A DNA stretch of 64,000 nucleotides from assembly GCA_024742285.1 (NCBI GenBank), contig JANSYR010000003.1, positions 62,001 to 126,000 of the forward strand. Reading direction: 5' to 3'. The translations under genes and the position numbers were made by a program. Positions 1,174-59,943 of this stretch are shown here, one piece after another (positions within the stretch are counted from its first letter, which is position 1; each line of letters begins with the position of its first letter). Below the pieces are notes generated by a model. The model was not told the origin of the DNA. It searched no databases and saw only the letters and a list, made by a program, of their open reading frames with translations. Origin of the DNA: a bacterium (GTDB taxonomy: Bacteria; Myxococcota_A; UBA9160; UBA4427).

Positions 1174-4100
1174 TTGTCGATGCGCGCCACGTTGACCGTC
1201 ATGGGCGGTCTGCCCGACCAGGCCGGGCAGTCGTTCGACGTCGGTCCGGAGACCACGACGCTCGGGCGGGGTCTCGCGTGCGACGTGCAGCTGGCGGACC
1301 AGAGCATCTCCCGGCTCCACGCCGAGCTCGTCTGGGAGGGCGAGACCCTCGTCCTGGTGCACAAGAGCCAGGTGAACCGCACCCTGGTGAACGGCGTGCA
1401 GATCACCGATCGCCTCACGCTCGCCGGCGGCGAAGAGATCCAGCTCGCCGACCGCGTCGTCCTTCGGCTGCGGATCGAGCGGGTCGAGGAGGCGCCGAGC
1501 GAGCCGGCATCCCCGACCGCGGAGGTCGACGAGACCCGGGACGGTTCGGTCGAGCCGCCCGCCGCGCCCGTCGAAGCGCCGCCGGAGCCGGTCGCCCCGT
1601 CGCCGCGCGAAGAGCCGCCGGCACCCGCTGCCGCAGAGCCTGCGGCGCCATCGGAGTCGGAACCGGAGCCGGTCGCTCCGCCGCCCCTGCCCGAACCCGT
1701 CGCCCCTGAACCGCCGCGAGCACCGGAGCCCGAGCCGGTTGCGCCTCCCCCTCCGGAGCCGCCGCAGCCGCCGTCTGCGGCACCGATGGTGCAGGCCGAG
1801 CCTACGGAAGGGCCCGAGGTCACCAGCGCCCTTCTCCTCCGTCCGGTCTCTGCCGACGAACCGCCGCCGGATCCGTCGAGCGTGAAGCTCGCGATCATCG
1901 GGGCGGGCCCCGCCGGCATCGCGGCGGGCGTACGCGCTGCCGAGCGCGGCGTCGAGCATGCCCTCTACGAGCGGTCGGTCCTCGCCGACACGATCGTGAA
2001 GTACCAGAAGGGCAAGTTCGTGATGGCCGAGCCGCCGCAGCTCCCGCTGCAGGCGGACCTCAAGATGATCTTCGAGGAGGCGGTTCGCGAGCAGGTCCTC
2101 GAGTGGTGGGAGACCGCCGTCCGCGATGCCGGGACGAACCTGGTCGAAGCGACCGAGATCCTCTCGATCGAAGGCGAGAAGGGCGCTTTCCGGATCTCGG
2201 TGCGCGGCCCGAACGGCGCCGAGACGGTCGACGCGACCCACGTCGTCCTGTCGATCGGCGTGCAGGGCGACCTGCGCAAGTTCGGTGTGCCCGGCGACGA
2301 CCAGCCCTGGGTGACGTACCAGCTCGACGATCCGAAGGCCTATGAAGACAAGCGCGTGATCGTCGTCGGTGTCGGTGATGCAGGGATCGAGAACGCGATC
2401 GCCCTCGCGGAGAACGGCAACGAAGTCACGATCGTGAATCGTCGGGACGAGATCGATCGCGCGAAGCCGATGAACAAGGCGGCGATCGAGGCGAGAATCA
2501 AGTCGGGCGAGATCGCCTACCTGACGAACGCGAGCGCCGATCGCTTCGAGAGCGATTCCGCCATCTTCAAGACGAAGGACGGCGAAGAGGTCACCGTTCC
2601 CTGCGATCTCGTGATCGGTCGTCTCGGCGCGACGCCGCCACGCGCGTTCCTCGAGACGACGGGGATCTCCTTCCCGAGCGCCGACAAGGAGGCGATTCCG
2701 GACGTCTCCGACAAGTACGAGTCGAACATCCCCGGCATCTACATGGTGGGGGCGCTGGTCGGCTATCCGCTGATCAAGAACTGCATGAACCAGGGCTTCG
2801 AGGTCGTCGAGCACATCCTCGGGGCCGACGTGAAGCCGGCGGACGAGCCCGTCCTCATGCAGAAATTCCGGGAGGTCGGCGGGGCCGTCAGCGAGAACCT
2901 CGACCGGATCCAGGACACGATCCAGACTCTGGCGCCGCTCACGTCGGTCCAGCTCCGCCAGCTGATCTTCGAGTCGAACGTGCGGATCGTGCCGCCCGGG
3001 ACCGTCGTCTACCAGCGAGCGGACTTCGACAATACGTTCTTCTCGATCATCGAGGGCGAGGTCGAGCTCGCCTATCTCGACAACTCCGATCCGACGATCC
3101 CCGAGGACCTTCGCGCCGAGCATCGTGCGCGGCGAGGGGCAGGACAGTTCTTCGGCGAGGATGGCTTGATCTCGGGCCGACGTCGCGGCGAGACCGTGAC
3201 GACGACGGCGCGATGCATCCTGATCGAGACGCCGCGCAACTCGATGACCAAGCTCACGCGTTCGGTCGAAGACGTGAAGCGGGTGATCGACGCGTCCTAC
3301 GTGAACTCCGCGCTCGCGACGCTGTTCCCGAGTCTCGACGAGAGCTCGCGAAAGCGACTCGCGTACAGCGCGGAGACGCTCCTCCATCGCGCGGGCGAGA
3401 CGATCTTCGCCGAAGGCGAAGACTGCGACGGCCTCCACCTGATCCGACGCGGGACCGCGGACATCTACAAGAAGCACGAGGGCGTCGAGGAACAGATCGA
3501 CTCCCTGCGCGCCGGGTCGACGCTCGGCGAGATCGGCGTGCTCCATCCCGATCGCGGTCGCTCGGCGACGTCGAAGGCCGGGGTCGACTGCGAGACGGTG
3601 CTCTTTCCGAACGAAGTGATCCTGCCCCTGGTCGAGCAGTACCGGGAGGTCCGCGAGTACCTCGAGCGGAAGGAGCAGGAGTTCATCATCGCCGACGCGC
3701 GCCGGCAGCACGGTCGCGGCACGATGATGTGGCTGCAGAAGGCGGGCGGGAAGGAAGCGACCGACCTGCTCATGATCGACGAGACGCTCTGCGTCCGGTG
3801 CGACAACTGCGAGAAGGCCTGCGCGGAGACGCACGGCGGCGTGTCCCGTCTGAATCGCGAAGCCGGAGCGACCTACATGACGAGCGCGGGCAGCGCGCTC
3901 CACCTCCCGACCGCCTGCCAGCATTGCGAGAATCCGAAGTGCATGACCGACTGCCCTCCGGACGCCCTCAATCGCGATCCCAACGGCGAGGTCTGGATCA
4001 ACGACGAGACCTGCATCGGCTGCGGCAACTGCGAGGCGTACTGCCCCTACGACGTGATCAAGATGGCGAAGATCGACGACGACCCGGGCCCGGGCCTGCT

Positions 4101-4332
4101 CATGCGTCTTCTCTTCCCCCGGCGCGCGACGAAGAAGGCCGATGCGCCCAAGCCGGAGGAGGGCGGGGCGGCCGCGATCAAGAAGGCCGTGAAGTGTGAT
4201 CTCTGCCGCGAGCTGCCGGCCAAGAAGAGCGGGGCGCCGCGTGCGGCCTGCGTCGCCTCCTGTCCGACGGGCGCCATCGTTCGCATCGATCCCGGCGAGT
4301 ACGTCGACGAGATCTACGAAAGGCAGGGCTAA
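1174..4332 (+). CDS. FHA / FAD-NAD(P) oxidoreductase / 2x cNMP-binding / 4x[4Fe-4S] fusion protein
   Basis: A 1052-residue cytoplasmic multidomain protein. Residues about 6-107 form an FHA domain (LGRG, SRLHAEL). Residues 110-225 are a Pro/Glu-rich linker. From 237 there is a thioredoxin-reductase-like FAD domain (IIGAGPAGIAAG) with a second Rossmann motif near 394 (VVGVGDAGIENA), and no CxxC redox pair is seen. Two CRP-like cyclic-nucleotide domains follow (about 590-690 and 713-815). From 871 a four-cluster ferredoxin resembles DmsB/NrfC subunits, with 16 cysteines (CVRCDNCEKAC, CQHCENPKC, CIGCGNCEAYC, CDLC...CVASC). It probably passes electrons between NAD(P)H and the membrane partner encoded next, gated by phospho-Thr and cyclic nucleotides; this is inference. 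The start is TTG at 1174 with GGAG nine bases upstream; ATG at 1180 is the alternative. Confidence 0.85.
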   Translation: MSMRATLTVMGGLPDQAGQSFDVGPETTTLGRGLACDVQLADQSISRLHAELVWEGETLVLVHKSQVNRTLVNGVQITDRLTLAGGEEIQLADRVVLRLRIERVEEAPSEPASPTAEVDETRDGSVEPPAAPVEAPPEPVAPSPREEPPAPAAAEPAAPSESEPEPVAPPPLPEPVAPEPPRAPEPEPVAPPPPEPPQPPSAAPMVQAEPTEGPEVTSALLLRPVSADEPPPDPSSVKLAIIGAGPAGIAAGVRAAERGVEHALYERSVLADTIVKYQKGKFVMAEPPQLPLQADLKMIFEEAVREQVLEWWETAVRDAGTNLVEATEILSIEGEKGAFRISVRGPNGAETVDATHVVLSIGVQGDLRKFGVPGDDQPWVTYQLDDPKAYEDKRVIVVGVGDAGIENAIALAENGNEVTIVNRRDEIDRAKPMNKAAIEARIKSGEIAYLTNASADRFESDSAIFKTKDGEEVTVPCDLVIGRLGATPPRAFLETTGISFPSADKEAIPDVSDKYESNIPGIYMVGALVGYPLIKNCMNQGFEVVEHILGADVKPADEPVLMQKFREVGGAVSENLDRIQDTIQTLAPLTSVQLRQLIFESNVRIVPPGTVVYQRADFDNTFFSIIEGEVELAYLDNSDPTIPEDLRAEHRARRGAGQFFGEDGLISGRRRGETVTTTARCILIETPRNSMTKLTRSVEDVKRVIDASYVNSALATLFPSLDESSRKRLAYSAETLLHRAGETIFAEGEDCDGLHLIRRGTADIYKKHEGVEEQIDSLRAGSTLGEIGVLHPDRGRSATSKAGVDCETVLFPNEVILPLVEQYREVREYLERKEQEFIIADARRQHGRGTMMWLQKAGGKEATDLLMIDETLCVRCDNCEKACAETHGGVSRLNREAGATYMTSAGSALHLPTACQHCENPKCMTDCPPDALNRDPNGEVWINDETCIGCGNCEAYCPYDVIKMAKIDDDPGPGLLMRLLFPRRATKKADAPKPEEGGAAAIKKAVKCDLCRELPAKKSGAPRAACVASCPTGAIVRIDPGEYVDEIYERQG

Positions 4333-4336
4333 CCGC

Positions 4337-5173
4337 GTGATCGGGCCCCGTACCTTCCTCGAGTACGAGAACTACCGCTATCTCAAGGTCGCGCTCGGCA
4401 TCCTCGTCCTGTCGATCGGCGTCTACGCCTTCGACGATCCGCCGGGCGGCCGGAGTGGGAGCTCCTGGACGGGCTACGGCCTCGGGACGATCGCCGCGGC
4501 GATCATCTTCTGGCTGATGTGGCTCGGCGTGCGCAAGCGCAGCTACGCCTCGGCCGGAGCGCCGCTCAAGGGTTGGACTTCGGCGCACGTCTATCTCGGG
4601 ACGATGCTGGTCTTCCTCGTGCCGCTCCACTCGGCGTTCGAGTTCGGGTGGAACGTGCACACGCTGGCCTTTGCTCTCATGTGCGTGGTCTGCTTCAGCG
4701 GGATGCTCGGGGTCGCGTTCTACGCGCTCGTCCCGACGTCGATGACGAGGAACCGCAACAACATCACGCTGGACGCGATGCTCGAGCGGATCGCCGAGAT
4801 CGATGCGGAGTGCCGGATGGCGGCAGACGGTCTGCCCGACTACTACGCGCAGGCGGTCGTGACCTCGATCGACGAGACCCGGGTCGGGGGGACCCTCCGG
4901 TCGCAGCTCTCCGGACAGGATCCGGACTGCGGAACGAGTCGTGCGCTCAAGAGCCTGCGCATGTCGGAGATCGATCTCGACGGCGACGCGAAGGAGCAGG
5001 AGCGGAAGCTCGTCGAGCTGATCGCTCGGAAGGAGCTCCTCTTGAAGCAGATCCGGCGTGACGTTCGCTTCAAGGGTCTGCTCGATCTCTGGCTGATCGT
5101 CCACGTCCCCTTCGCGTTCGCGACCTGCGCGGCGCTCCTCGTCCACATCTTCGTCGTCTTCTGGTACCACTGA
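4337..5173 (+). CDS. Polytopic membrane protein, cytochrome-b-like anchor
   Basis: A 278-residue integral membrane protein with about five hydrophobic segments: four in residues 10-126 and one at the C-terminus (WLIVHVPFAFATCAALLVHI). Several His residues sit in or beside the membrane segments (AHVYLG, PLHSAF, NVHTLAF, IVHVPF, LVHIFV), which suggests b-type haem ligands. A charged soluble loop of about 120 residues lies between segments four and five. It starts at GTG 4337, four bases after the preceding stop, and overlaps the next ATG by one base, so it is co-translated with the iron-sulfur fusion protein and the decaheme protein. The likely role is transfer of electrons across the inner membrane. 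No named family is recognised, so the haem assignment is inference. Confidence 0.75.
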   Translation: MIGPRTFLEYENYRYLKVALGILVLSIGVYAFDDPPGGRSGSSWTGYGLGTIAAAIIFWLMWLGVRKRSYASAGAPLKGWTSAHVYLGTMLVFLVPLHSAFEFGWNVHTLAFALMCVVCFSGMLGVAFYALVPTSMTRNRNNITLDAMLERIAEIDAECRMAADGLPDYYAQAVVTSIDETRVGGTLRSQLSGQDPDCGTSRALKSLRMSEIDLDGDAKEQERKLVELIARKELLLKQIRRDVRFKGLLDLWLIVHVPFAFATCAALLVHIFVVFWYH

Positions 5174-7092
5174 TGCGCGTACGCCTGACAGAGATCCGAC
5201 TGCGCCCGACGGGAAAGAAGGTCCGACTCGATCGCGACCTCGACGTCGAGTCCCTCTTCATCGGCCGCGGTCCGGACAACGATCTCTCGCTCAAGGGCCT
5301 GACGATCTCCCTCCACCAGGCGACGCTTCGCATGGCGGAAGGCCGGCTCTACGTCGAGGCGGCACCCGGGCAGGACGTCAACGTCAACGGGTTGGTGACC
5401 CAGGGCGAGCGGCTCGCGATCGGCGACGTGCTCAAGATCGGCTCGTGGGAGCTGCGGGTCATCGAGCCGACGTCCCTCGGCGAATTCGACATCGCCCTCG
5501 AGTACGAGGAGACGGATCGCGGCGAAGGCGAGCGCGCCGCGCTCGACGCGAGGACGACGCTCGGCCTCGAGGCGGGCGCCTTCTCGATGCGTCCGCTTTC
5601 CTGGGCGGGAATCGTCCTGGTCCTGTTGCTCTTCCTTCTCCTGCCACTCGCTTGGGAGGGTGCACAGTCGCCCTGGAATACCGGCGACGTGAGCCGCGGC
5701 CACGCGTACATCGAGAACGACTGCCAGAGCTGCCACTCCGGCCTCTTCCGTCCCGTCCAGAACCAGGACTGCATGACGTGTCACCACGACATCGGTCGTC
5801 ATGCGCCCTCCGAGATGGCGATGGCGGAGCTCGACGACGCGTCGTGCGCGACCTGCCACCTCGAACACCGCGGTCGACAGGTCGATCTCGCCGATCTCGG
5901 CGCCGGCTTCTGCGCCGACTGCCACTCGGATCTCCGCGCGACGCTGCCCGCGACCGCGCTCCGGAACGCGAGCGACTTCGGCGAGGATCATCCGCCCTTC
6001 CAGCTCGCGCTGATCACCGATCCGAGCGAGGAGGCGGTCTCCGTCGACGTCACCCCCGACCTGGTCGAAGTCTCCGGGCTCGAGTTCAACCACCTCCGAC
6101 ACGTGGGCAAGGCCGTGAGCGGTCGCGGAGACGACAAGCAGTACCTGCAGTGCGGCGCCTGCCACCAGCCGGACGCCGGCGGGCTCTACATGAAGCCCAT
6201 CGTCTTCGAGGAGCACTGCGAGGACTGCCATCGACTCGATTTCGACGCGACGGCGCCGGAAGGGACGGTGCCCCACGGTGATCCGGCGGTGATCCGGGAT
6301 CGGATCCGCGGCTTCTACGCGAACCGCGTACTGGACGGGGACGTGAAGGATCCCGCTGCGCCGCGCCGTCTGCGGCTGCGCCGTCCGGGCAAGCGACTCA
6401 CGTCGGACGAGGCCGAGCTCTCGCGTCGCTGGGTCGACGGGAAGGTCGCCGCCGCCGAGCGACGCTTCTACGAGCGCCCGGGAACCTGCGACCTATGCCA
6501 TACGCTCGCACCGGACGAGGCACGCGACGGCGGGATGGGGATCGCGCCGGTGCAGATCCAGGACGTCTGGGTACCGGGCTCGATCTTCAGTCACGGCTCC
6601 CACGCGCCCTTCGCATGCGTGAAATGTCACCCGGCCGCCGGGGTCTTCGACCCCGAGGAGGACACGGCGCTCGCACGACCCGAGTGGTCCCTCGAAGGGG
6701 CGATCCCGTACGAGCTGATTCCGCGCGAGCCGACGACGCGGGTGAGCAGCGTCGCCGGCGACATCCTGATTCCGGACATGGAGGTCTGTCGGGACTGCCA
6801 CGCCGGGGGCGAAGCGAGCGGGGGCGAGAAGGTGCCGAGCCCGTGCTCGATGTGTCATCCGTTTCACGTTCGGGCGAATGGACCGATGGGCACGATCGTC
6901 GAATCGGATCCGGGCGCTCCGGCCGAGCCCGCCCTCCCCGAATCCGATCCGGAAGAGGCGTCCGATGCCGAGGCCCGGGCCGCCGTCCATCGCACGCTCT
7001 TCCGACACGACGCATCCGTCTCCTTCTCGCAGGGTCGCCCATCGACGGAGCCCTCCACCTTTCGCCATCCGCCGTTCAGTCGCCTGAATTAG
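5173..7092 (+). CDS. FHA-transmembrane-decaheme c-type cytochrome
   Basis: A 639-residue protein. Residues about 1-95 form an FHA domain (IGRGPDNDLSL, then ISLHQ where SxxH is usual). One transmembrane helix lies at about 143-161 (WAGIVLVLLLFLLLPLAW). The rest is predicted periplasmic and carries ten CXXCH haem sites, the first at C184 (CQSCH, CMTCH, CATCH, CADCH, CGACH, CEDCH, CDLCH, CVKCH, CRDCH, CSMCH). The N-in topology would put the FHA domain in the cytoplasm and the haems outside, physically coupling a phospho-Thr reader to a periplasmic electron wire. The start ATG shares its A with the stop of the upstream gene. The C-terminal 70 residues are acidic and Pro-rich. Haem count and topology are read from sequence; partners are inferred from order. 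Confidence 0.88.
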   Translation: MRVRLTEIRLRPTGKKVRLDRDLDVESLFIGRGPDNDLSLKGLTISLHQATLRMAEGRLYVEAAPGQDVNVNGLVTQGERLAIGDVLKIGSWELRVIEPTSLGEFDIALEYEETDRGEGERAALDARTTLGLEAGAFSMRPLSWAGIVLVLLLFLLLPLAWEGAQSPWNTGDVSRGHAYIENDCQSCHSGLFRPVQNQDCMTCHHDIGRHAPSEMAMAELDDASCATCHLEHRGRQVDLADLGAGFCADCHSDLRATLPATALRNASDFGEDHPPFQLALITDPSEEAVSVDVTPDLVEVSGLEFNHLRHVGKAVSGRGDDKQYLQCGACHQPDAGGLYMKPIVFEEHCEDCHRLDFDATAPEGTVPHGDPAVIRDRIRGFYANRVLDGDVKDPAAPRRLRLRRPGKRLTSDEAELSRRWVDGKVAAAERRFYERPGTCDLCHTLAPDEARDGGMGIAPVQIQDVWVPGSIFSHGSHAPFACVKCHPAAGVFDPEEDTALARPEWSLEGAIPYELIPREPTTRVSSVAGDILIPDMEVCRDCHAGGEASGGEKVPSPCSMCHPFHVRANGPMGTIVESDPGAPAEPALPESDPEEASDAEARAAVHRTLFRHDASVSFSQGRPSTEPSTFRHPPFSRLN

Positions 7093-7117
7093 GCCCGGCA
7101 ATTTCGTTCAGGACAGG

Positions 7118-7123
7118 TAGAAT
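7118..7123 (+). promoter_or_regulatory. Candidate -10 box upstream of the HbpS-like lipoprotein gene
   Basis: TAGAAT sits in the 276-bp gap after the decaheme gene, 246 bp before the next start. If used, it gives the distal three genes their own promoter and a leader of over 230 nt. No good -35 is visible, so this is weak. Confidence 0.3.
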
Positions 7124-7368
7124 CGATCGGGACGCGCGAGGGGCGCGCCAGATCGTTCTACCGACTTCGCTGCGCGTATCGAGCGCTCGCGAAGGAAGAC
7201 GGAACGCCCAGCGCCGATCCCCTGCACGCGTCGTCGTTGAACGAAGCAGCGAGTCGCGGTCGACCCCAGGTCGCGCCGGCTCGAAGCGGAAGCAGGAACA
7301 TGCCGGTGTTCCTTTCGTCGTGGCCTCTCGAGCAGGACGCGGCGGTCGGGGCCGGTCGGAGGCGCCCG

Positions 7369-9972
7369 ATGACCCCCCGTTTCCCGCGCGGCTCGCTCGA
7401 GCGCCGAGAGCGAAGGCTCTCGTCGCGGAGACCGGGCATCGTCGCGCTCGGAGCCTCGCTCCTCCTCGTCGCGATGCAGCTCGGCTGCCCCGACGGCAAC
7501 GTGTCGACCAATCAGGTCTGTCAGTTCCAGTGCGACTACACGCAGGACGGGACCGAGGTCGGCTATCCGGCCGAGGCCGCCGGCGTCGAGGCGCGACTCA
7601 CGATCCAGGACGTCGTGCAGGTGATCGCCAACGCGATCCACGAAGCCGAAGCCAACGGCATCCCCGACATCACGATCGTCGTCCTGGACCACCTCTCCAA
7701 CGTGCTCGCGGTCTACGACACCGACGCGGCGACCACGAACTACTCGCTGATCACGTCGGTCGAGTCACCGAACCGGACGGCCAACACGCCCTTCATCGTC
7801 GAGAACAACGGGGGATCGGCGGACTTCTCCGGCGTCGCGACGACCGCGGGCCTCGGCTCGCTCCAGACCGCCCTCGACGGGGTCTTCATCCCGGCGGCCT
7901 ACGCGGCGATCAGCAAGGCCGGCACGTCCAACTATTTCTCGACCCAGGGAAACGCGTTCACGTCGCGGACGGCGAGCACGCTGATCCAGCAGAACTTCTT
8001 CCCGGGCGAGACGGATCGGCCCGGCGGTCCGCTCTTCGCGGTCCAGATCGCCCAGCTCGTCTGCAGCGACATCAATACGCGCCAGAGCGTCGACCAGCTC
8101 GCCGACGCGACCGTGGCGGACGACCCGACCGATCTGATCGGCCCGCGCCGGCTCCCCGTCGGGTTCGCCGCGGATCCGGGCGGCATCTCGCTCTACAAGG
8201 ACGACATCGCCGAGCTCGACGCGCCGGTCTTCCTGGGCGGCGCACCGACCGGGCGAACGGGCAAGGTCGTCGTGGGGGCGGTCGGGATCGAGTTCAACGG
8301 CATCTACGGTCTCGACAAGGACGGCACGGATCGAGACCGCAACCTCGAGGAGCGGATCGCCTACGGCGCGACGATCGGGGCGACGGCCGACGAGAGCTTC
8401 AGCGCGGACGTGGAGCGACGGGCCTCCCGGATCACCGTCGCGGGTCGCGCCCTTCGCTGGGTCGACGACACCGGGCGCCGCGCCTCCCGCGCGACCGCGC
8501 CGATCATCACGGCCGGGGACGTCGCCAACATCGGGGCGATCAACGCCCGGCTGAACGGCTTGATCACCCTCGGTTCCGGAGCCGGCCAGTTCGTCTCCGA
8601 CCAGTTCTTCTTTCCCTTCACGGAGCCGCGCGCCGGCGTCTTCTTCCTCGACCCGACCTCCGGCGTGATCGGCGATACCTTCGCCGACACCGACGTCGCC
8701 GTGGGCAACGGCTACGTCGGAACCGCGAACGGCGAGAAGCTCGTCGACGCGCTCGGCGCCGACCGCTACCCCGCGATCGACAGCGTGAACCCACCGCCGC
8801 CGGCGGATCCGGCGAATCCCCTCCTCGCGGACGGCCTCTCCGCCGCGGACGTGCAGGAGCTCCTGATCGAAGCGCTGCTCCTCGCGGAGAACACGCGTGC
8901 CCAGACCCGCCGCCCTCTCGGTGGTCAGGCGCGGATCGACGTCGCGGTCGTCGATCTCGACGGAAACGTCCTCGGCTTCGCGCGTTCGCAGGACGCCCTC
9001 CTCGACGGCGTCGACGTCACGATCGCGAAGACCCGACAGGCGGCGTTCTGGTCGAAGGACAACACGCGGACCCAGCTCGAGGACGCGCTCGACCCGCTCG
9101 GCAACAACGGCAACCTGCTGAACACGCGCTCCTTCGACCAGTACCTCGCCGACACGCGCGCGTTCCTGGGGCTCGACCCTGCGGACCCGCTCTTCGAGGG
9201 CGAGTTCGCCTGGTCCTCGATCGCCCTGGGCGGAATCGCCAACCCCGACTTCCCGCCCGGCGTCGCCTCCGGCCAGAACGGTCCGCTCAGTCGAAATCCC
9301 GACATCGACGAGTGGAGCATCTTCTCGACCGGCATCCAGACCGAGACCGTCCTGCCGGCCATCGCGGTCGGCCTCTGCGAAGAGGTGCCGGATCTCGCCG
9401 GCGTGCTCTTCGATCTGAACGCGGCGGCCGGGCTCGGCGTCGCGCCGCCGGCCGGCGGACGCGCCGCGCTCTTCACCGACGCGGCCCAGCGCGACACGTT
9501 CTGTGACGGCGTCCGGACCTTCCTGATCGGCTCGGCCGACGCCGGCGCCCAGCTCGACTGCCTGCAGGGCACCCAGGACTTCCCGGCCGGCTCGGGGAAC
9601 ATCACGGGCCTCCAGAACGGGTTCCACATCTTCCAGGGCGCGGTCCCGATCTACCGGACGGACGCCACCACGGGCGACGCCGTGCTCGTCGGCGCCTACG
9701 GGGTGTCAGGCGACGGTGCCGAGCAGGACGACTTCGTGCCCTTCGTGGCCCTCGACGAAGTGGGCAAGGCCCAGGCCCGGGCCCCCCGCAGCATCGCGAA
9801 CCCGATCGGGAACGCGCCGGGCGTCGGTGTCGACACGACTCCGGTCGACGGAAGACCCGACGTCCAACGCGCCGACAACATCAGCGTCCAGAACGTGTTC
9901 CTACGGTACGTCGTCTGTCCGGTCGCGCCCTTCCTGAGCAGCAACGAGCAGAACGGGTGCGAGGGACGATGA
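7369..9972 (+). CDS. Lipoprotein with two HbpS/GlcG-like haem-binding domains
   Basis: An 867-residue protein. After an Arg-rich N-terminus comes a hydrophobic segment ending VAMQLGC, a slightly degenerate lipobox with C40. Two regions resemble the HbpS/GlcG (PF03928) fold: one starting near LTIQDVVQVIANAIHEAE with ITIVVLDHLSNVLAVYDTD, the other near LSAADVQELLIEALLLAEN with VAVVDLDGNVLGFAR. HbpS-type domains bind haem in known cases; here the assignment is by motif. ATG 7369 was chosen because GGAGG lies six bases upstream, although the frame stays open from 7237. It overlaps the start of the beta-barrel gene, so it is probably an envelope component of the same electron-transfer system. Confidence 0.78.
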   Translation: MTPRFPRGSLERRERRLSSRRPGIVALGASLLLVAMQLGCPDGNVSTNQVCQFQCDYTQDGTEVGYPAEAAGVEARLTIQDVVQVIANAIHEAEANGIPDITIVVLDHLSNVLAVYDTDAATTNYSLITSVESPNRTANTPFIVENNGGSADFSGVATTAGLGSLQTALDGVFIPAAYAAISKAGTSNYFSTQGNAFTSRTASTLIQQNFFPGETDRPGGPLFAVQIAQLVCSDINTRQSVDQLADATVADDPTDLIGPRRLPVGFAADPGGISLYKDDIAELDAPVFLGGAPTGRTGKVVVGAVGIEFNGIYGLDKDGTDRDRNLEERIAYGATIGATADESFSADVERRASRITVAGRALRWVDDTGRRASRATAPIITAGDVANIGAINARLNGLITLGSGAGQFVSDQFFFPFTEPRAGVFFLDPTSGVIGDTFADTDVAVGNGYVGTANGEKLVDALGADRYPAIDSVNPPPPADPANPLLADGLSAADVQELLIEALLLAENTRAQTRRPLGGQARIDVAVVDLDGNVLGFARSQDALLDGVDVTIAKTRQAAFWSKDNTRTQLEDALDPLGNNGNLLNTRSFDQYLADTRAFLGLDPADPLFEGEFAWSSIALGGIANPDFPPGVASGQNGPLSRNPDIDEWSIFSTGIQTETVLPAIAVGLCEEVPDLAGVLFDLNAAAGLGVAPPAGGRAALFTDAAQRDTFCDGVRTFLIGSADAGAQLDCLQGTQDFPAGSGNITGLQNGFHIFQGAVPIYRTDATTGDAVLVGAYGVSGDGAEQDDFVPFVALDEVGKAQARAPRSIANPIGNAPGVGVDTTPVDGRPDVQRADNISVQNVFLRYVVCPVAPFLSSNEQNGCEGR

Positions 9973-12239
9973 TGATGACGAGACGCGCGCCCGGTCTTTC
10001 ACGCTCCTTCGTCGTCGGCCTCGCCGCGTTCGCCATCCTCGGCGCGGATGCGGGTTGGGCGGCGAGACCCGTCGAGGATCCGGCGGTCGAGACGAAGCCG
10101 GGCGTCACGGAGCTCGAAGCGACCCTCGCCCCGTCGACCTCCGAAGATCTCCTTCTCGCCCAGGCCGACGTCGAGGACGACGGCGCGCGCGCCCGACGTC
10201 GTCGCCGCCCGCGCGGTCGAAGGCCCGGTGGCAGTCGCCAGGGCGATGCGGGCCAGGAACGCCCGCCCGCGCCTCCGCCGGCGCCGACGCAGCAGCCGGT
10301 CACGCCGCCGGAGCCCGAGCCCTCGGGTGGCGCACCGACGCCGGAGGCGGCGCCCACACCGGTCGTCCCCACGCCCCCGCCCCCGCCCGCGCCCCCGACC
10401 CCCACGCCGGAGCCGCCCCTCGACGAGGGCACGTGGACGCCGGCGCCGCGTCAGCCGGCGCCGCCGCCTCCGCCGCGGCGACCGACCCCGGTCCGTCCAG
10501 GAACCACGGAGTCCGATCAGGACTCCGGCGCCACGCCGGAGGCGGAGCCCGCGCCGCGTCCGATCCCGCGTTCCGAGTGGGTGCCGGGCGAGCCGCCGCC
10601 CCAGCGAAGCGATGGACAGCGGCCGAGCCGGCGCAACGCGCCGACCTACGAGAACGAGCTGCCCGACTACGAGTTCGTGGCGCTGCCCGACCGCTGGCGG
10701 ATCGTCGAGAACCTCGGCGTGAACGAGAAGTGGTGGGACCCGTACAACCAGAACACGCTCAAGGCCGATCGACCGATCCCCGGAACCAAGGACTGGTTCG
10801 TCAACCTCAACATCGTCGCCGACCAGGTCTTCGAGCCGCGGCGCATCCCGATCCCGACGGGCGCCGCCGGCGACAACGACCAGGAAGTCGATCTCTTCGG
10901 CGACGGCGTCGCGTGGGAGAGCCAGACGACGCTGCTCACCTCGGTCGCGCTGATCCAGGGTGACACGACGTTCCGGCCGCCGGACTGGGAGATCCGCGTC
11001 ACCCCGGCGCTCAACGTCAACAAGGTCTGGGTCCAGCAGCTGGGCGCCGTCAAGCTCGACCCGAAGGCCGGCGACGATCGCCTCGACTACCACTTCACGC
11101 TCCAGGAAGCCTTCGTCGACAAGCATCTCTGGAACCGGACGGATCGCTTCGACTTCGATTCGATTCGAATCGGGATCCAGCCCTTCAACGCCGATTTCAG
11201 AGGCTTCCTCTTCGACAGCTCGGAGCCCGGGGTCCGCCTCTTCGGCAACTTCGCCAACAATCGTGCCCAGTACAACCTGGCCTGGTTCGGTCGCCTCAAC
11301 AAGGACACGAACTCGGCGCTCAACGATCTCGAGTCCTGGCGCGACGACCATACGATCATCGCCAACTTCTACTACCAGGACTTCCCGGTCCTCGGCTTCA
11401 ACGTCGAGGCGATTTTCGCGGCGAACATCAACCGCGAGGGCGACGAGCGTGACTTCGATCGCAACAAGAACCTGGTGATCCCGGCGCCGGTCGGCCTGAT
11501 CGGTGGCAAGGACTACGAGGTCTACTACGTGGGGATCGGCGGCGATGGCCACATCGAGCGCCTGAACCTCACGTTCCAGATCTACGGGGCCTTCGGGAAC
11601 GAGGACTACAACGGGGTCGCCCAGCGCAGCCAGGACATCGAGGCGTGGTTCGCAGCCTTCGAGGCGAGCTACGACATCGACTGGATGCGCTGGAAGGCGT
11701 ACATGCTCTGGGCGTCCGGCGACGAAGATCCCTTCGACGACAAGGCGCAGGGCTTCGACACGATCCTCGACAACCCGAACTTCGCCGGCGGGACGACGTC
11801 CTTCTGGATGCGCCAGCAGGTTCCCTTCGTCTTCGGCGGAAGTGTCGCGCTCTCGGGCAAGAACTCGATCGTGCCCTCGCTGCGAAGCTCGAAGATCGAG
11901 GGCCAGAGCAACTTCGTGAACCCCGGGATCTGGCAGGTCGGCGCCGGCGCGGACTTCGACGTCCTTCCGCAGCTCCGGCTGCTCACGAACGTGACCTGGC
12001 TCCAGTGGGACACGACGACGGTCCTCCAGACGCTTCGCCAGCAGGGTCGGCTCGATCGCGAGATCGGCTGGGACGTGTCGGCGGGCCTGATCTATCGGCC
12101 GCTCTTCACGAACAACATCATCCTGCGCGCCTCGGGGTCGGTTCTGATCCCGGAGAGCGGCTACGAAGAACTCTTCGAGGAACGTCGCGACGACGATCCG
12201 CCCTACTCGGTGCTCTTCAATGCGACGTTCACGTACTGA
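9969..12239 (+). CDS. Outer-membrane beta-barrel protein with Pro-rich N-terminal region
   Basis: About 756 residues. A signal peptide (SFVVGLAAFAILGADAGWAA) is followed by an Arg-rich patch and a long Pro/Ala/Glu-rich segment to about residue 215. A domain rich in alternating aromatic/polar strands then runs to the last residues SVLFNATFTY; a terminal aromatic is typical of outer-membrane barrels. Gly/Asn/Asp-rich loops and repeated strand-like stretches support a porin of about 500 residues. Sitting between haem-protein genes, it is the candidate conduit of a porin-cytochrome complex. The start lies within ATGATGATG (9969-9977) overlapping the upstream stop; the GAGGG upstream could serve the second or third ATG equally well. 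Confidence 0.75.
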   Translation: MMMTRRAPGLSRSFVVGLAAFAILGADAGWAARPVEDPAVETKPGVTELEATLAPSTSEDLLLAQADVEDDGARARRRRRPRGRRPGGSRQGDAGQERPPAPPPAPTQQPVTPPEPEPSGGAPTPEAAPTPVVPTPPPPPAPPTPTPEPPLDEGTWTPAPRQPAPPPPPRRPTPVRPGTTESDQDSGATPEAEPAPRPIPRSEWVPGEPPPQRSDGQRPSRRNAPTYENELPDYEFVALPDRWRIVENLGVNEKWWDPYNQNTLKADRPIPGTKDWFVNLNIVADQVFEPRRIPIPTGAAGDNDQEVDLFGDGVAWESQTTLLTSVALIQGDTTFRPPDWEIRVTPALNVNKVWVQQLGAVKLDPKAGDDRLDYHFTLQEAFVDKHLWNRTDRFDFDSIRIGIQPFNADFRGFLFDSSEPGVRLFGNFANNRAQYNLAWFGRLNKDTNSALNDLESWRDDHTIIANFYYQDFPVLGFNVEAIFAANINREGDERDFDRNKNLVIPAPVGLIGGKDYEVYYVGIGGDGHIERLNLTFQIYGAFGNEDYNGVAQRSQDIEAWFAAFEASYDIDWMRWKAYMLWASGDEDPFDDKAQGFDTILDNPNFAGGTTSFWMRQQVPFVFGGSVALSGKNSIVPSLRSSKIEGQSNFVNPGIWQVGAGADFDVLPQLRLLTNVTWLQWDTTTVLQTLRQQGRLDREIGWDVSAGLIYRPLFTNNIILRASGSVLIPESGYEELFEERRDDDPPYSVLFNATFTY

Positions 12240-12258
12240 GCGGGATCGGAACGAACTG

Positions 12259-15200
12259 ATGACCGAACACGAAAAGAACCGTTCCCCGTTCCTCTCTTCG
12301 GCGGCCGTGATCGCGGCGACGGTCGCGGGCTTCCTCGTCCTCGCGATCCTCGGCGCGGAGAGTCCGTCGACCGCGGCGGAAGGCGAGACGCCCCTCGAGA
12401 TCGAGTATCCGGTCTATCCCCCGGCACCGGCGGATCAGACCGAGACCGAGGCGGCGGTGAAGACGGCGGGCTGCGTGACGTGTCATACGAAGTCCGACGA
12501 GGCGACGATGCATCCGCAGCGTTCGGTCGTCCTCGGCTGCACGGACTGCCACGGCGGCGACGCCACGGCGGTCACGAGCGACTACGACCCGGGCTCCGCC
12601 GAGTTCCTCGAGGCGAAGGCGCGGGCCCACGTCCAGCCCGCCATGCCCGAGACGTGGAAGAACCGTCGAAACGAGCAACGGACCTACGCGCTCCTCAATC
12701 TGGAGAGCCCCGAGTACGTCCGTTTCGTGAACCCCTCGGACTACCGCGTCGCCGACGAGGCCTGTGGTGCCTGCCACCAGACGATCGTGGACAAGGCGAA
12801 ACGCTCGATCATGGCGACGGGCGCGATGCTGTGGGGCGGTGGCTCCTACAACAACGGGATCGTCCCCTTCAAGCGCTACATCCTCGGCGAGGCCTACACC
12901 CGCGAAGGCAAGCCTGCCGCGATCCAGGCACGCTTCGAAGTGACTCGCGAGCAATCGGACATGGGCGTCATGCAGATGGCGTTTCCGCTTCCCGCATGGG
13001 AGACGGTTCCGCCGGCCGACATCTTCCGGATCTTCGAGCGCGGCGGCCGCAACGTGAACAGCTTCTTTCCGGAGACGGGAATCCCGAACCCGGAGGAAGA
13101 GCCGGGCAAGCCGGACGTGCGCGCGTCCTTTCGCGGCCCCGGCACGGGCAACCGCGTCTCGATCCCGGTCCTGAACATCCACAAGACGCGGCTAAACGAT
13201 CCGAACATGTGGTTCATGGGTACCAAGGATCAGCCTGGCGACTTCCGCAGCTCGGGCTGCGCCGGCTGCCACGTGGTCTACGCGAACGACCGCGAGTGGT
13301 ACAGCTCCGGCTCCTACGCCAAGTACGGCAATCGCGGTCAGACCCAGACCGTCGATCCGATGATCGCGAACCTGAAGAACGAGAAGGGCGAGAAGGAGTG
13401 GGGGCACCCGATCAAGCACGCCTTCTCCCGCGCGATCCCGACCTCCCAGTGCATGAACTGCCACATGCATCAGCCGAACATGTTCCTCAATTCGTATCTC
13501 GGATACACGATGTGGGACTACGAGTCCGACGCACCGCTCATGTGGCCCGAAGAGCAGCAGTACCCGAACTACTCCGAGCAGCTCGAAGTCCTCGAGCGCA
13601 ATCCCGAAGAGGCGTCCTACAAGGGCAAGTGGGCCGACGTCGAGTTCCTCGCCGAGGTCCATACCGAGGTGAACCCGGAGACGAAGGACACGAAGTTCGC
13701 CGACTATCACGGTCACGGCTGGAACTTCCGCGCGATCTTCAAGCGCTCGCGGGACGGCACGCTCCTCGACGCCGCGGGCAACGCGATTCCCGAAGGCCTC
13801 TCCAACAAGGAGAAGTTCGATCGCGCGGTCCACATGCGCGACATCCACGCCGAGATCGGCATGCAGTGCGCCGATTGCCACTTCGCCGACGACGCCCACG
13901 GCAACGGCGAGCTCCACGGCGAGGTCGCGGCGGAAGTGAACATCCGCTGCCGCGACTGCCACGGCACGGCCGACGAATACGCGACCCTCAAGACGTCCGG
14001 GCCGGCGTCGCCCCCCGATGGCCGCGACCTCTCCCGCCTGCGCAACGCCGACAACCGCAAGCGCTTTGAGTGGCGCGGCGGAAAGCTCTACCAGCGCCTG
14101 CTGCTCCCGCCCCACAACGAGTTCCAGGTCAGCCAGGTGAAGGACTCCGTGACGCCGGGCAACCCGGAGTACAACCGGAAGGCCGCCCGGGCGAAGATGA
14201 TGTCGAAGGGGACGGACCAGTCCTGGGGCACGGGCGTCGCGAAGGCGGATCGTGCCCACGGCGACGACGACATCGCCTGCTTCTCCTGCCACAGCTCCTG
14301 GGTCACGAGCTGTGGCGGCTGCCACCTGACGATCCAGGCGAACTGGAAGACCGAGATCCACAAGTACGACGCCAAGACGAGTCGGAACTTCGCGACCTAC
14401 AACCCGCAGGTCGCCCGCGACCAGATGTTCCAGCTCGGCAAGCACGGCACGGTCAAGGACGGGATCATCGCGCCCATCCGATCGAGCTCCGCCCTCGTCC
14501 TCTCCTCGACGGACATCAACCGCAACCGGATCTACATCCAGCAGCAGCCGGTCTCCGCCGGCGGCTATTCCGCGCAGGCCTTCGCACCGCATTTCCCGCA
14601 CACGGTTCGCAAGGCCGAGACCAAGGGATGCGAGGACTGCCACGTCTCCGAGTCCAACGACAACAACGCGATCATGGCCCAGCTCCTCCTGCTCGGGACC
14701 AACTTCGTGAACTTCATGGGCTTCAACGCCTGGGTCGGGACCGACGAAGAGGTCGTCGCGATCCAGGTGACGGAATGGGACGAGCCCCAGGCCGTGATCG
14801 GGAGCTACCTCCACGAATACGCCTATCCGGACTACTTCCAGGAGCACGAGGACCGCGAACGCGAGCTGACGATGGTCACACCGGGCTACCAGGACGGCGA
14901 TCCCGGTTGGGTGAAGCGCCTCCGCCAGTTCTTCTCGCGCGAGCTGCCCGAGTGGACGGGGATCCGAGACGCCCTCTACGACGGCGAGTACACCCATCAT
15001 TCGGGTCGCGTCGAGTGCATCCAGCTCCGCGGCGAGTACCTCTATGCAGCAGAGGGCCGAAAGGGCATGCAGGCCTTCGACGTCTCGACGATCGGCACGA
15101 AGGGCTTCTCCGAGCGGATCATCACCGCTCCCTTCTCGCCGCTCGGCCAGAACGTACGGATCAAGTCGAAGAACGCGACCTGCGTGGCGCTCCCGACGAC

Positions 15201-16128
15201 GCAGCTCCTGCGACCCGAACTCAACCGGACGGACCTCGCCCAGCAGGTGAACCTCGAGCAGCCGATGCATCCCATCTACAGCTACGTCGCAGTCACCGAC
15301 GCGGAAGAGGGCTTGATCCTGGTCAACAACGAGACGCTGACCGACTTCGAGCCGCGCAACAACTTCTTCGACCGGGCGATCACCTGGAATCCGAACGGCG
15401 TGCTCGACGGCGCGAACTACGCGCACTTCGCGGGGCATCTGCTCTACGTGTCCGCGAAGGCGGGCGTCGTGATCGTCGACCTCGACGATCCGCTCGAGCC
15501 GAAGGTGCTATCGACGATTCCGCTTTCCGGGGCGCGCGGGACGATGGTGCAGTTCCGCTACCTCTTCGCGACGACGGCGAACGGGCTCGAAGTCGTCGAC
15601 GTGACGGACCCGGCGAAGCCGCGGATCGTCGAAGGGGCGACCGTCCCCCTCGCCGAGGCGCGGCGCGTGATGGTCTCCCGGACCTACGCCTATGTGGCGG
15701 CGGGCTCGGAAGGCCTCGTGATCGTCGACGTCGAGCAGCCGGAGAAGCCTACGGTCTTCATGCGGTACACCGCGGACGGTCAACTGGACGACGCCCAGGA
15801 CGTCGCCGTCGCGACGACCAACGCCTCGCTCTTCGCCTACGTGGCGGACGGGGCGAACGGTCTGAAGGTCCTGCAGCTGACGTCGCCGGAGCTGAACCCG
15901 AAGTTCTACGGCTTCAGCCCCGCGCCCAACCCGAAGCTGATCGCCTGGCGCAAGACGAAGAGCGAGGCCCTCGCGGTCTCGCGACCCCTCGAGCGCGACC
16001 GCGCCGTGGATGAGACGGGCCATCAGATCGCCGTTCTCGGCCGCCTCGGCTCGCGTCCCTTCAATCTCGAGGAGATGAAGAAGCTGTATCTGACCGAGCA
16101 GGGGCGCGTCTGGACGGTCAAGGACTGA
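12259..16128 (+). CDS. Large decaheme c-type cytochrome with C-terminal LVIVD beta-propeller repeats
   Basis: A 1289-residue protein with an N-terminal hydrophobic signal (AAVIAATVAGFLVLAILGA). Ten CXXCH sites lie between residues 72 and about 795 (CVTCH, CTDCH, CGACH, CAGCH, CMNCH, CADCH, CRDCH, CFSCH, CGGCH, CEDCH). The last 300 residues have no haem and carry LVIVD-type repeats (GVVIVDLDDPLEP, GLEVVDVTDPAKP, GLVIVDVEQPEKP, GLKVLQLTSP), which form a beta-propeller in proteins often found at the cell surface. It begins 19 bases after the barrel gene. It is the likely terminal, surface-side partner of the conduit. The substrate is unknown: metal or mineral, humics, or an electrode-like acceptor are possible, as is electron uptake. 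Confidence 0.88.
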   Translation: MTEHEKNRSPFLSSAAVIAATVAGFLVLAILGAESPSTAAEGETPLEIEYPVYPPAPADQTETEAAVKTAGCVTCHTKSDEATMHPQRSVVLGCTDCHGGDATAVTSDYDPGSAEFLEAKARAHVQPAMPETWKNRRNEQRTYALLNLESPEYVRFVNPSDYRVADEACGACHQTIVDKAKRSIMATGAMLWGGGSYNNGIVPFKRYILGEAYTREGKPAAIQARFEVTREQSDMGVMQMAFPLPAWETVPPADIFRIFERGGRNVNSFFPETGIPNPEEEPGKPDVRASFRGPGTGNRVSIPVLNIHKTRLNDPNMWFMGTKDQPGDFRSSGCAGCHVVYANDREWYSSGSYAKYGNRGQTQTVDPMIANLKNEKGEKEWGHPIKHAFSRAIPTSQCMNCHMHQPNMFLNSYLGYTMWDYESDAPLMWPEEQQYPNYSEQLEVLERNPEEASYKGKWADVEFLAEVHTEVNPETKDTKFADYHGHGWNFRAIFKRSRDGTLLDAAGNAIPEGLSNKEKFDRAVHMRDIHAEIGMQCADCHFADDAHGNGELHGEVAAEVNIRCRDCHGTADEYATLKTSGPASPPDGRDLSRLRNADNRKRFEWRGGKLYQRLLLPPHNEFQVSQVKDSVTPGNPEYNRKAARAKMMSKGTDQSWGTGVAKADRAHGDDDIACFSCHSSWVTSCGGCHLTIQANWKTEIHKYDAKTSRNFATYNPQVARDQMFQLGKHGTVKDGIIAPIRSSSALVLSSTDINRNRIYIQQQPVSAGGYSAQAFAPHFPHTVRKAETKGCEDCHVSESNDNNAIMAQLLLLGTNFVNFMGFNAWVGTDEEVVAIQVTEWDEPQAVIGSYLHEYAYPDYFQEHEDRERELTMVTPGYQDGDPGWVKRLRQFFSRELPEWTGIRDALYDGEYTHHSGRVECIQLRGEYLYAAEGRKGMQAFDVSTIGTKGFSERIITAPFSPLGQNVRIKSKNATCVALPTTQLLRPELNRTDLAQQVNLEQPMHPIYSYVAVTDAEEGLILVNNETLTDFEPRNNFFDRAITWNPNGVLDGANYAHFAGHLLYVSAKAGVVIVDLDDPLEPKVLSTIPLSGARGTMVQFRYLFATTANGLEVVDVTDPAKPRIVEGATVPLAEARRVMVSRTYAYVAAGSEGLVIVDVEQPEKPTVFMRYTADGQLDDAQDVAVATTNASLFAYVADGANGLKVLQLTSPELNPKFYGFSPAPNPKLIAWRKTKSEALAVSRPLERDRAVDETGHQIAVLGRLGSRPFNLEEMKKLYLTEQGRVWTVKD

Positions 16129-16167: not shown

Positions 16168-16298
16168 AAGGCTCCGCATGGTAGGGTGAAGCGAAGCCGG
16201 AACGGCGCTGCGCGTGCACGCGTCGGCCGGGGAAGCCCCTGGGTCGCCCGTGAAGCGTGTCGCCGGCGATGCGAGGGTTCGATCCGCGAGGAACGCCG

Positions 16299-17645
16299 AT
16301 GTCCGAGAGATGGCGAAGCGCGATCGTCGTCGCGTTGCTGGTGCTCGGCATCGCGACGAGCGCGCAGGCGATCGGTCTCGTGGGCAACTACCACGAGTCG
16401 AGCGGAGTCGTGCTGAACATTCCGTTGAACCCGCCCGTCGTCCCCTGCGACGCATCCGCGGACAACGCGCGCTGCCACTTCAAGCAACAGAAGTTCTGGG
16501 GCCAGGTGGGGTTGGCGCGCACGGAAGCGCCGGCGATCGGGGTGCCCGGAGCGACATCGATCGCCGGCGATCCACGGAGTGTGGGCGCGCCCTTCACGTT
16601 GCCCACGGGCTTCATGCACCAGGACCGGACCCAGGCGACGCCAGTACTGGGGGCCGTCGCGATCTACCGCGCCACGTCGTTCGACGCGATCGCCCCCGCC
16701 GCCGAGCGGGACAAGCACCTCGGTCTGACCGGGATGGATCCGGGCTTCGTTCCCAATCCGAACACGCGCGTCTTCGCCCCACGCACGTTCTCGACGGCGA
16801 ACCTGTCCGCCTTCGGGCAGAACAACGGCCTCGCGACGACCGATCCGGACTATCGCTACCGCCGCGCGCTCGACACGACGTACACCGCTTCTGTCCCGTT
16901 CACCTCCAGACCAGTGCGCTCGGGTTGGATCACCGTGACGTATCGCGGCGGAAGCGGCTTCAGCGGGACGGCCGGTCTGCTCCTCGACGGGAGCGGCGAT
17001 GTCTACCTCGGAGGGCCGAACATCGACGTGTTCGGCACCCCCGCGCAGGCGCCGGTCCTCCTCCGCTATCCGACCGGCGACGACGTGAGCGGAAATCCTG
17101 AGCTTCGGGCCGGGATGGGCTGGGACTACATCGTCACCGCCGTTCAGGACGCAGGCGCGCTCAAGACCTTTGGGCTGGGTACGCACGATCCACTGCCGGG
17201 CGGATTCTGCACGACGACGGCGGCGCCGGCGCTTCCGGCGGGCTGCAACGTCGTGGTCGGGTTCGACACGAACGGCGGCCCCGGCCCCTTCCAGCCTCCC
17301 GGCGTCACCACGGTTCGGCATGCCTTTCCCTGGACGACGGGTACGGTGACGGTCACGGTCGTCTCGCGGTGGGATTCGTTCGTCAACACCGTCACGGTCC
17401 GCGGTCGCGGGCATGACGCGACTTCTCCCTTCGCGACGGGGCAACGGCGCAGTCTGGGCCTGGTGGCCGGCGGCTACGCGGCCCGGAAGGATCCTGCCGG
17501 CGGCTCCACCGGGATCTATCCCGTGCTCGCCGGCATGAACCTGGTGTTCACCCCCGAGCCCTCGTCCACGATCGCGCTTCTCGTCGGCGTCGGTCTGCTC
17601 GGCGCTCTGGCCGCGCGACGGGGGCGATCGATTCGAGGCGACTGA
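16299..17645 (+). CDS. PEP-CTERM sorting domain protein
   Basis: A 448-residue secreted protein. The signal peptide ends LGIATSAQA. The C-terminus is a canonical PEP-CTERM tail: TPEPSSTIALLVGVGLLG followed by AARRGRS. PEP-CTERM proteins are processed by an exosortase and delivered to the envelope or extracellular matrix; no exosortase is in this window. The central region is Gly/Thr-rich with few Cys and no recognised catalytic motif. ATG 16299 follows GAGGAA by five bases. It stands alone after the redox operon terminator and in front of a second, shorter sorting-tail protein. Function beyond surface export is unknown. Confidence 0.85.
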   Translation: MSERWRSAIVVALLVLGIATSAQAIGLVGNYHESSGVVLNIPLNPPVVPCDASADNARCHFKQQKFWGQVGLARTEAPAIGVPGATSIAGDPRSVGAPFTLPTGFMHQDRTQATPVLGAVAIYRATSFDAIAPAAERDKHLGLTGMDPGFVPNPNTRVFAPRTFSTANLSAFGQNNGLATTDPDYRYRRALDTTYTASVPFTSRPVRSGWITVTYRGGSGFSGTAGLLLDGSGDVYLGGPNIDVFGTPAQAPVLLRYPTGDDVSGNPELRAGMGWDYIVTAVQDAGALKTFGLGTHDPLPGGFCTTTAAPALPAGCNVVVGFDTNGGPGPFQPPGVTTVRHAFPWTTGTVTVTVVSRWDSFVNTVTVRGRGHDATSPFATGQRRSLGLVAGGYAARKDPAGGSTGIYPVLAGMNLVFTPEPSSTIALLVGVGLLGALAARRGRSIRGD

Positions 17646-17686
17646 ACGGAGTCGCGGGGCGCCGGCCATCCGCGAGCCGCGCGTGC

Positions 17687-17692
17687 TAGTCT
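17687..17692 (+). promoter_or_regulatory. Candidate -10 box
   Basis: TAGTCT preceded by TGC (an extended -10 arrangement) lies about 35 bp before the start of the short PEP-CTERM-like gene. No clear -35 is seen. Confidence 0.3.
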
Positions 17693-17727
17693 GAGCCTCT
17701 GGGAAGGTCGGCGCCGTGGAGAAACGG

Positions 17728-33293: not shown

Positions 33294-33425
33294 CCTCGCG
33301 CGTCCTCCCATTGGGTCGACGCGATGGTAACGCTCGCGACGGGTCGAACGCGAGTCGCAGACGGCCCGCTCGTGCATCCAGGCCGGAAGCCGGGTCGCGT
33401 GGGTGTGGGCCCCTGCCGCGGGAGT

Positions 33426-41716: not shown

Positions 41717-41996
41717 CGCCCAAGGAGTTCCGGGTTGGGAAATTCGTAAGAAAAATGACACAGATGGGCGTCGAATTGGCCTCGAACGTCGCCATATTGA
41801 ACCACTGTCGGTAGGACCTGGAAAAAAGCGCTGGGAGATCGTGGGTCTAGCCTCGGAACTGCGGATTCCGCCGTCTCGGGGAAGCCCCCGAAAGACGCCG
41901 GTTCGCACCGCGCTATCCTCACGGCTACCCCTCGGGCCCCGGAGGTGGACCGTCTCGCACGGTCCCCAGGCGGGGCTGCCGGGACGTGGAGGCGGC
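41717..41996. other. Divergent intergenic region with an AT-richer island
   Basis: Between the PAS gene and the large kinase gene. The stretch at 41736-41835 is clearly less GC-rich than its surroundings and probably contains divergent promoters. No gene is supported. Confidence 0.35.
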
Positions 41997-53840: not shown

Positions 53841-53849
53841 GAATCCGTC

Positions 53850-55762: not shown

Positions 55763-55806
55763 CGGGTATCTCCAGCTTGCCTGCTCGGATCAGGCCCGCC
55801 CGGGGC

Positions 55807-57552: not shown

Positions 57553-57554
57553 GT

Positions 57555-59009: not shown

Positions 59010-59025
59010 CGAGTTCTCTCCTCGA

Positions 59026-59919: not shown

Positions 59920-59943
59920 CGTCGGATTCCTCTCGCGCGTCGC

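Follow-up and report, generated by a model that had tools for sequence, protein, structure and literature searches.

Do six adjacent genes of a Myxococcota_A bacterium (lineage UBA4427) encode one electron chain that crosses the whole cell envelope, and if so, what feeds it, what switches it and in which direction do its electrons flow? The genes lie co-directionally on the plus strand, overlapping or closely spaced, at positions 1174-16128 of a 64,000-nucleotide stretch of contig JANSYR010000003.1 (the window, meaning the whole stretch that was analyzed), which comes from a 6.5-Mb assembly. A first-pass annotation had assigned every layer of the envelope to one of them, namely a cytoplasmic NAD(P)-flavin/ferredoxin fusion (gene 1), a membrane b-type anchor (gene 2), a membrane-tethered decaheme cytochrome (gene 3), an HbpS-like lipoprotein (gene 4), a barrel (gene 5) and a decaheme cytochrome with a propeller (gene 6). 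All of these domains were found, and they are conserved as a unit. Because cofactor motifs continue through every layer, from a flavin adenine dinucleotide (FAD)/NAD(P) domain through 16 cysteines and five membrane histidines to two sets of 10 hemes, we consider it fairly probable that the six genes form a single NAD(P)H-fed trans-envelope electron chain gated by cyclic nucleotides.

Conservation of the module

The same six genes, on one strand and in one order, are present in 23 fetched loci. These span close relatives of the delta/Myxococcota type, alphaproteobacterial metagenome-assembled genomes (MAGs) named as Rhodospirillaceae, and many gammaproteobacteria; some of the loci are close relatives of one another and not all are independent. 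Isolates carrying the module include Chromatocurvus halotolerans, Pseudoteredinibacter isoporae and Tahibacter harae. The nearest named records of gene 6 are the MAGs bacterium Co_bin.94, Deltaproteobacteria UBA4427, Deltaproteobacteria SP124 and Myxococcota PW6 (84-96% identity), which makes the host a member of an uncultured lineage of the delta/Myxococcota type; beyond the window's genus identity is 53-64%. The trees of genes 1-5 show distances that correlate with those in the gene 6 tree (Mantel r 0.76-0.93, p 0.001), in which the window's order stays together.

Among 369 evenly drawn Gammaproteobacteria genomes, gene 6 was found in 13 and gene 1 in 17, and every genome with gene 6 also carried gene 1 (13/13; hypergeometric p 8e-21). 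Gene 3 was present in 12 of the 13. The module frequency in this sample is about 3.5%. An evenly drawn sample of the window's own phylum gave matches at E <= 1e-20 in 8 of 284 genomes, a few of them distant homologues only. Gene order in 23 loci together with the 13/13 co-occurrence leads us to reject a chance assembly of the operon. In other genomes of the order and phylum (L037, L084, L085), open reading frames (ORFs) of about 890-1510 amino acids contain distant homologues of the heme region of gene 6, at 26-36% identity. One genome of the window's genus (G060) holds two copies of the six-gene module (L034 and L036); the gene 6 of one shares 84% identity with that of the window, and the other copy is closer to L035, from a different family of the order.

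The gene order proposed at first pass therefore stood, but the size of the unit did not. An orthologue of gene 7, a pentaheme cytochrome gene, lies directly beside gene 6 and usually after it in most relatives, so that by gene neighborhood the conserved unit is larger than six genes, with gene 7 as its usual companion. Several Lysobacterales-type loci (for example L052, L067 and L068) showed no gene 7 next to gene 6, and in the window gene 7 is 15.8 kb downstream of gene 6 (Table 1).

Table 1. Module genes and associated genes in the window. The starts of genes 2 and 4 are probable corrections.
Feature	Coordinates	Strand	Predicted product	Evidence or remark
Gene 1	1174-4332	+	Cytoplasmic fusion of FHA, YpdA/FNR-like flavoprotein, tandem cNMP and ferredoxin domains	Pfam/NCBIfam
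Gene 2	4337-5173	+	Putative di-heme b-type membrane cytochrome	ORF open from 4196; start probably GTG at 4337
Gene 3	5173-7092	+	FHA domain, one transmembrane helix, decaheme c-type domain	
Gene 4	7369-9972	+	Exported lipoprotein with HbpS-like domains	ORF open from 7237; start probably near 7369
Gene 5	9957-12239	+	Pro-rich N-terminal stretch, then predicted 18-strand outer-membrane beta-barrel	
Gene 6	12220-16128	+	Exported decaheme c-type cytochrome with C-terminal LVIVD beta-propeller	
Gene 7 (accessory)	31884-33377	-	Pentaheme C554-like cytochrome	One CX4CH and four CXXCH
Hanks-type Ser/Thr kinase	34110-35912	+	Protein kinase	Pfam Pkinase, E 2.8e-37

Around the operon, a reverse-strand ORF lies upstream of the six-gene block. 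Directly after gene 6 are a PEP-CTERM protein gene at 16257 and then a gene for a second secreted-looking protein (16257-18354 for the pair), relatives of which follow gene 6 in L032 and L038. Farther downstream, a minus-strand run at 51302-63974 resembles by eye a type IV/MSHA-type pilus system, with prepilin-like N-termini and an ExeA/MshM-like ATPase.

Proposed electron entry at the inner membrane

Gene 1 encodes an N-terminal FHA domain (about 1219-1446), a YpdA/FNR-like FAD-NAD(P) domain (1885-2796), two cyclic-nucleotide (cNMP) domains, the second at 3388-3642, and a ferredoxin part like NrfC, DmsB and HycB (about 3769-4284) with 4Fe-4S dicluster domains. Among PDB entries, a profile built from 18 orthologues matches YpdA, the tandem cyclic-nucleotide-binding domains of PKA/PKG regulatory proteins, and HycB-type ferredoxins. 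The C-terminal part contains 16 invariant cysteines, which by their number are enough for four putative [4Fe-4S] clusters. The sole hint as to the nucleotide is an RR pair conserved after the second nucleotide motif, which suggests that NADPH is preferred over NADH. A thioredoxin or bacillithiol reductase was considered and rejected, as the flavin domain contains only two cysteines and no CXXC, and the score on the YpdA equivalog (bacillithiol disulfide reductase) is 153.9 against a cut-off of 339.9.

The gene 2 protein scores just under the cut-off of the Pfam cytochrome b561 model Ni_hydr_CYTB (28.0 versus 30.1 bits), and PDB searches with its profile returned nothing useful. Five histidines (ORF residues 131, 145, 155, 303 and 317) are invariant over 24 sequences and fall in membrane segments according to hydropathy. 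Among them are two pairs with a spacing of 14 residues, as expected where two b hemes are stacked, an arrangement that we infer for this protein. Gene 3 encodes an FHA domain (about 5233-5463), a transmembrane helix (5596-5652) and 10 CXXCH motifs, along with 10 further invariant histidines. The motif count is 10 in 22 of 23 orthologues and nine in the remaining one (L073). The gene 3 profile matches GSU1996-type polyheme c7 cytochromes in the PDB and, weakly, chain A of 6r2q, which we take to be an MtrCAB entry although the tool's label of that chain differs. An N-terminal transmembrane helix followed by 10 conserved CXXCH motifs is what is expected of the multiheme periplasmic c-type cytochrome of a conduit (PMC6148476).

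Along the proposed chain, NAD(P)H would reduce the FAD domain of gene 1, and electrons would move over the four [4Fe-4S] clusters to gene 2, where two b hemes would take them across the inner membrane to the tethered decaheme protein of gene 3, and from there to the gene 6 decaheme protein at or beyond the outer membrane. Known inner-membrane components of extracellular electron transfer (EET), such as CymA, CbcL/MtrH/MtoC and ImcH, work on the quinone pool (PMC6295460). In this module a cytoplasmic NAD(P)H-FeS protein, gene 1, is a constant part of the operon. Direct input from NAD(P)H is favored here over a menaquinol-fed chain because C. halotolerans contains ubiquinone 8 as its sole quinone and comes from a group described as aerobic (PMC3679898); the chain is apparently not quinol-fed.

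The first three genes may also act separately from the others. Two loci (L110 and L111) contain genes 1-2-3 with gene 7 and without genes 4-6, and in another (L065) genes 4-6 are present and gene 1 is displaced downstream, which is why genes 1-2-3 could be an inner-membrane input module that is coupled to different outputs. Elsewhere, a shortened gene 6 was found with the other module genes not nearby (L064). Downstream of the trio in L110 (14883-18276) are genes for a five-heme cytochrome and for a 542-amino-acid protein that belongs to no Pfam family; the two may form a different output module.

The outer-membrane genes and the direction of flow

Gene 4 belongs to the HbpS-like family (43.4 bits on the Pfam model, gathering score 25). 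ORF residue Cys84 is the lipobox cysteine, and a lipobox is found in most orthologues. Heme binding by this protein is unsupported, there being no invariant histidine and no heme motif.

An AlphaFold2 model of gene 5 from 26 orthologues (mean predicted local distance difference test [pLDDT] 70.6, predicted template modeling score 0.72) contains 18 strands ending at the C-terminus. Its best Foldseek match is the porin AlgE (E 1.6e-16), followed by OprD/Occ porins, and MtrB was absent among the 50 matches listed. NCBIfam returned DESULF_POR1 alone, weakly and under the cut-off (E 1.9e-6), while one orthologue matches Pfam Alginate_exp. The first-pass annotation had staked its conduit on gene 5 being an outer-membrane beta-barrel, and the model bears this out: the predicted fold is that of an outer-membrane porin, providing the integral outer-membrane beta protein expected of a conduit (PMC6148476). 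An MtrB-like barrel of 26 strands was not recovered, the predicted one being AlgE-like with 18.

The heme motifs of gene 6 span residues 85-808, and the LVIVD propeller is encoded at about 15007-15969. Ten CXXCH motifs are found in 25 of 26 orthologues and eight in one MAG copy (L036), and at least 10 further histidines are conserved. The propeller was modeled with pLDDT above 90, with generic propellers as its only Foldseek matches. Neither the gene 5 and gene 6 sequences nor the gene 6 profile retrieved anything useful from the PDB. In the proposed chain, the gene 5 barrel and the gene 4 lipoprotein would form the outer-membrane module for gene 6, with electrons passing through the barrel to a gene 6 protein exposed at the surface. 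An outer-membrane redox lipoprotein is a further expected conduit component (PMC6148476); in this module the lipoprotein of gene 4 is without a heme motif, and the hemes are on gene 6, which contains a lipobox in L062 only.

Several points weigh against the full path. The heme part of gene 6 was modeled with a mean pLDDT of 54.5 and is not resolved, and therefore the model does not place gene 6 relative to the barrel. A barrel of 18 strands might not be wide enough to surround a decaheme protein, and gene 6 mostly carries a signal peptide without a lipobox, unlike the surface cytochromes of known conduits. At the inner membrane, gene 2 may contain a quinone site. Finally, no biochemistry for any module member was found in the open-access literature searched.

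Some of these features would also suit a dedicated reductase, in which the AlgE-like barrel admits a specific solute (an oxyanion, a metal complex, a sugar acid or a quinone-like compound) for gene 6 to reduce in the periplasm, genes 1-3 supplying the electrons. In its favor, the barrel resembles solute channels of the AlgE/Occ type and not MtrB, gene 6 mostly has no lipobox, its nearest named family is ExtM of a selenite/tellurite cluster (73.9 bits), and the lipoprotein is of the HbpS/GlcG type. However, ExtB of the genetically supported Geobacter ext conduit is likewise predicted to contain 18 transmembrane segments (PMC6148476), a propeller on a 10-heme protein suggests contact with a partner or a surface, and with at least 10 additional conserved histidines all hemes could be bis-His ligated, leaving no obvious open catalytic heme. 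We regard such a reductase as unlikely.

Flow through a single NAD(P)H-fed chain would probably be outward, that is, electron export. Nothing in the chain fixes a direction, multiheme conduits can in principle run either way, and homologous ones function in Fe(II) oxidation, all of which would also allow the reverse, in which an extracellular donor passes electrons via gene 6 to gene 1, where NAD(P)+ or ferredoxin is reduced. But reduction of NAD(P)+ from external donors needs energy and the operon encodes no pump or reverse-flow complex, gene 1 resembles NADPH-oxidizing enzymes, and among the named isolates carrying the module is an aerobic photoheterotroph (PMC3679898). Electron uptake is less probable than the reductase, and we consider it improbable.

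Proposed cyclic-nucleotide and phospho-threonine control

Both cNMP and phospho-threonine domains had been proposed at first pass to control the redox chain. The cyclic-nucleotide part is backed by sequence. Domains of this kind are present in all 18 gene 1 orthologues scanned, in tandem in every one, and the first of them keeps the phosphate-binding residues of its cassette, Glu662 and Arg671, in 18/18. Class III cyclase genes are close to the operon in some relatives (L041, L062, L078 and L111); the window's own genome encodes three, none of them beside the operon. As judged from this conservation, control of gene 1 by cyclic nucleotides is well supported, and binding of a nucleotide to the tandem domains would gate electron entry.

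The phospho-threonine part fared less evenly, with gene neighborhood in its favor and the FHA domains themselves partly against it. The FHA domain of gene 1 is found in the window's genus only and was rejected as a defining feature of the module for that reason. That of gene 3 has a Pfam match in 17 of 23 orthologues, and both the phospho-threonine-binding Arg and Asn are kept in 10 of 23, the window included. Genes for a PP2C phosphatase and a double-FHA protein directly follow gene 7 in ten gammaproteobacterial loci (L045-L051, L055, L057 and L065), and the PP2C beside the operon in Chromatocurvus is the sole PF13672 match of that genome. In L065 a Hanks-type kinase gene separates the PP2C/FHA genes from gene 1, and in L036 one is found a short distance upstream. 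The FHA domains would provide docking sites for phosphorylated partners or keep the complex assembled.

In the window, the Hanks-type kinase beside gene 7 is weakly indicated as a candidate partner of the FHA domains, the link being one of neighborhood only. Its N-terminus repeats the motifs TRVVPD/TRIVPD, possibly autophosphorylation sites that are read by FHA domains. The kinase is conserved with gene 7 (L059 and L077) and, in the genus, with a DUF4399 protein, and it is one of 13 PF00069 matches in its own genome. A further large ORF with a protein-kinase domain (PF00069) was seen at 41841-45206 of the window.

Certain observations count against this regulatory picture. In the second cNMP domain of gene 1, R796 is kept in 17 of 18 orthologues and E786 in only 9 of 18, where it is otherwise Gln, Asn or Phe. 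The binding residues of the gene 3 FHA domain are not both kept in 13 of 23 orthologues, and the window kinase is 18 kb from the operon, among housekeeping genes. Phospho-threonine control is thus supported mainly by gene neighborhood and weakened by residue loss in many orthologues, and we propose that dependence on it may vary between lineages.

Regulatory domains on both inner-membrane components, with kinase, phosphatase and cyclase genes near, might also be expected of a redox-sensing relay that reports the extracellular redox state to the cNMP and phospho-threonine network and carries no metabolic flux. A sensor would need far less than 20 c hemes, an NAD(P)H-flavin module and four Fe-S clusters, and all of these parts are conserved, in contrast to the FHA residues; we find such a relay very improbable.

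Relation to known systems

The six-gene module shares with MtrCAB, MtoAB and PioAB a periplasmic decaheme protein, an outer-membrane barrel and a second decaheme protein. MtrB is a 26-strand barrel (PMC12133095), whereas gene 5 is predicted to have 18 strands and does not match the MtrB model. Gene 3 scores 23.3 on the DmsE/MtrA model TIGR03508 (cut-off 192.2) and, unlike that family, is membrane-tethered and carries an FHA domain. Gene 6 scores 19.3 on PF22113 of the MtrC/OmcA/MtrF type (cut-off 30) and contains LVIVD repeats. Membership in the MtrCAB family was rejected on the barrel and on these two scores.

Similarity to the Geobacter ext clusters (ExtABCD and ExtHIJKLMNOPQS) extends to the multiheme cytochromes, to a porin with a comparable number of predicted strands, and to an inner-membrane b cytochrome, which is found in the extI cluster (PMC5877670). 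ExtM is the most similar NCBIfam model to gene 6, which nevertheless lies far below its cut-off of 800, contains 10 hemes and not 12, and is fused to a propeller. The module also lacks the Rieske protein ExtO, the rhodanese ExtH, and ExtKL, and for the ext clusters there are no reports of FHA domains or of a fusion of NAD(P)H-flavin, cNMP and ferredoxin parts. Genes 2 and 3 form an inner-membrane b/c cytochrome pair resembling a split CbcL, except that they are preceded by a gene for a cytoplasmic protein with the NAD(P)H-FAD and putative 4x[4Fe-4S] centers, and that no NapC/NirT domain was found in gene 3 in domain scans. Gene 1 in turn resembles YpdA/TrxR-type ferredoxin-NADP reductases and AegA/YgfT-type fusions, in which an FAD-NAD(P) fold is joined to a DmsB/NrfC-like ferredoxin, but it contains two cNMP domains between flavin and ferredoxin and no redox CXXC.

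Taken on its predicted proteins, the module appears to be a porin-cytochrome-like conduit distinct from both MtrCAB and Ext. To our knowledge, signal-sensing domains within an electron conduit have not been reported for known bacterial wires. No account of such a system (multiheme cytochromes combined with LVIVD, FHA, cNMP or porin elements) was found in the open-access literature searched, which is no proof that none exists. We tentatively suggest, as a possibility that falls somewhat short of the single-chain reading in likelihood, that the module represents an undescribed and widespread class of EET that would draw on NADPH and not on quinol, would be switched by cNMP and phospho-threonine on the redox proteins themselves, would use an 18-strand AlgE-type barrel, and would include aerobic heterotrophs among its hosts. 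Its presence in named isolates makes the idea directly testable in cultures. If true, EET would be not only a form of anaerobic, quinone-fed respiration but also a regulated outlet for NAD(P)H in aerobes, under second-messenger control at the protein level.

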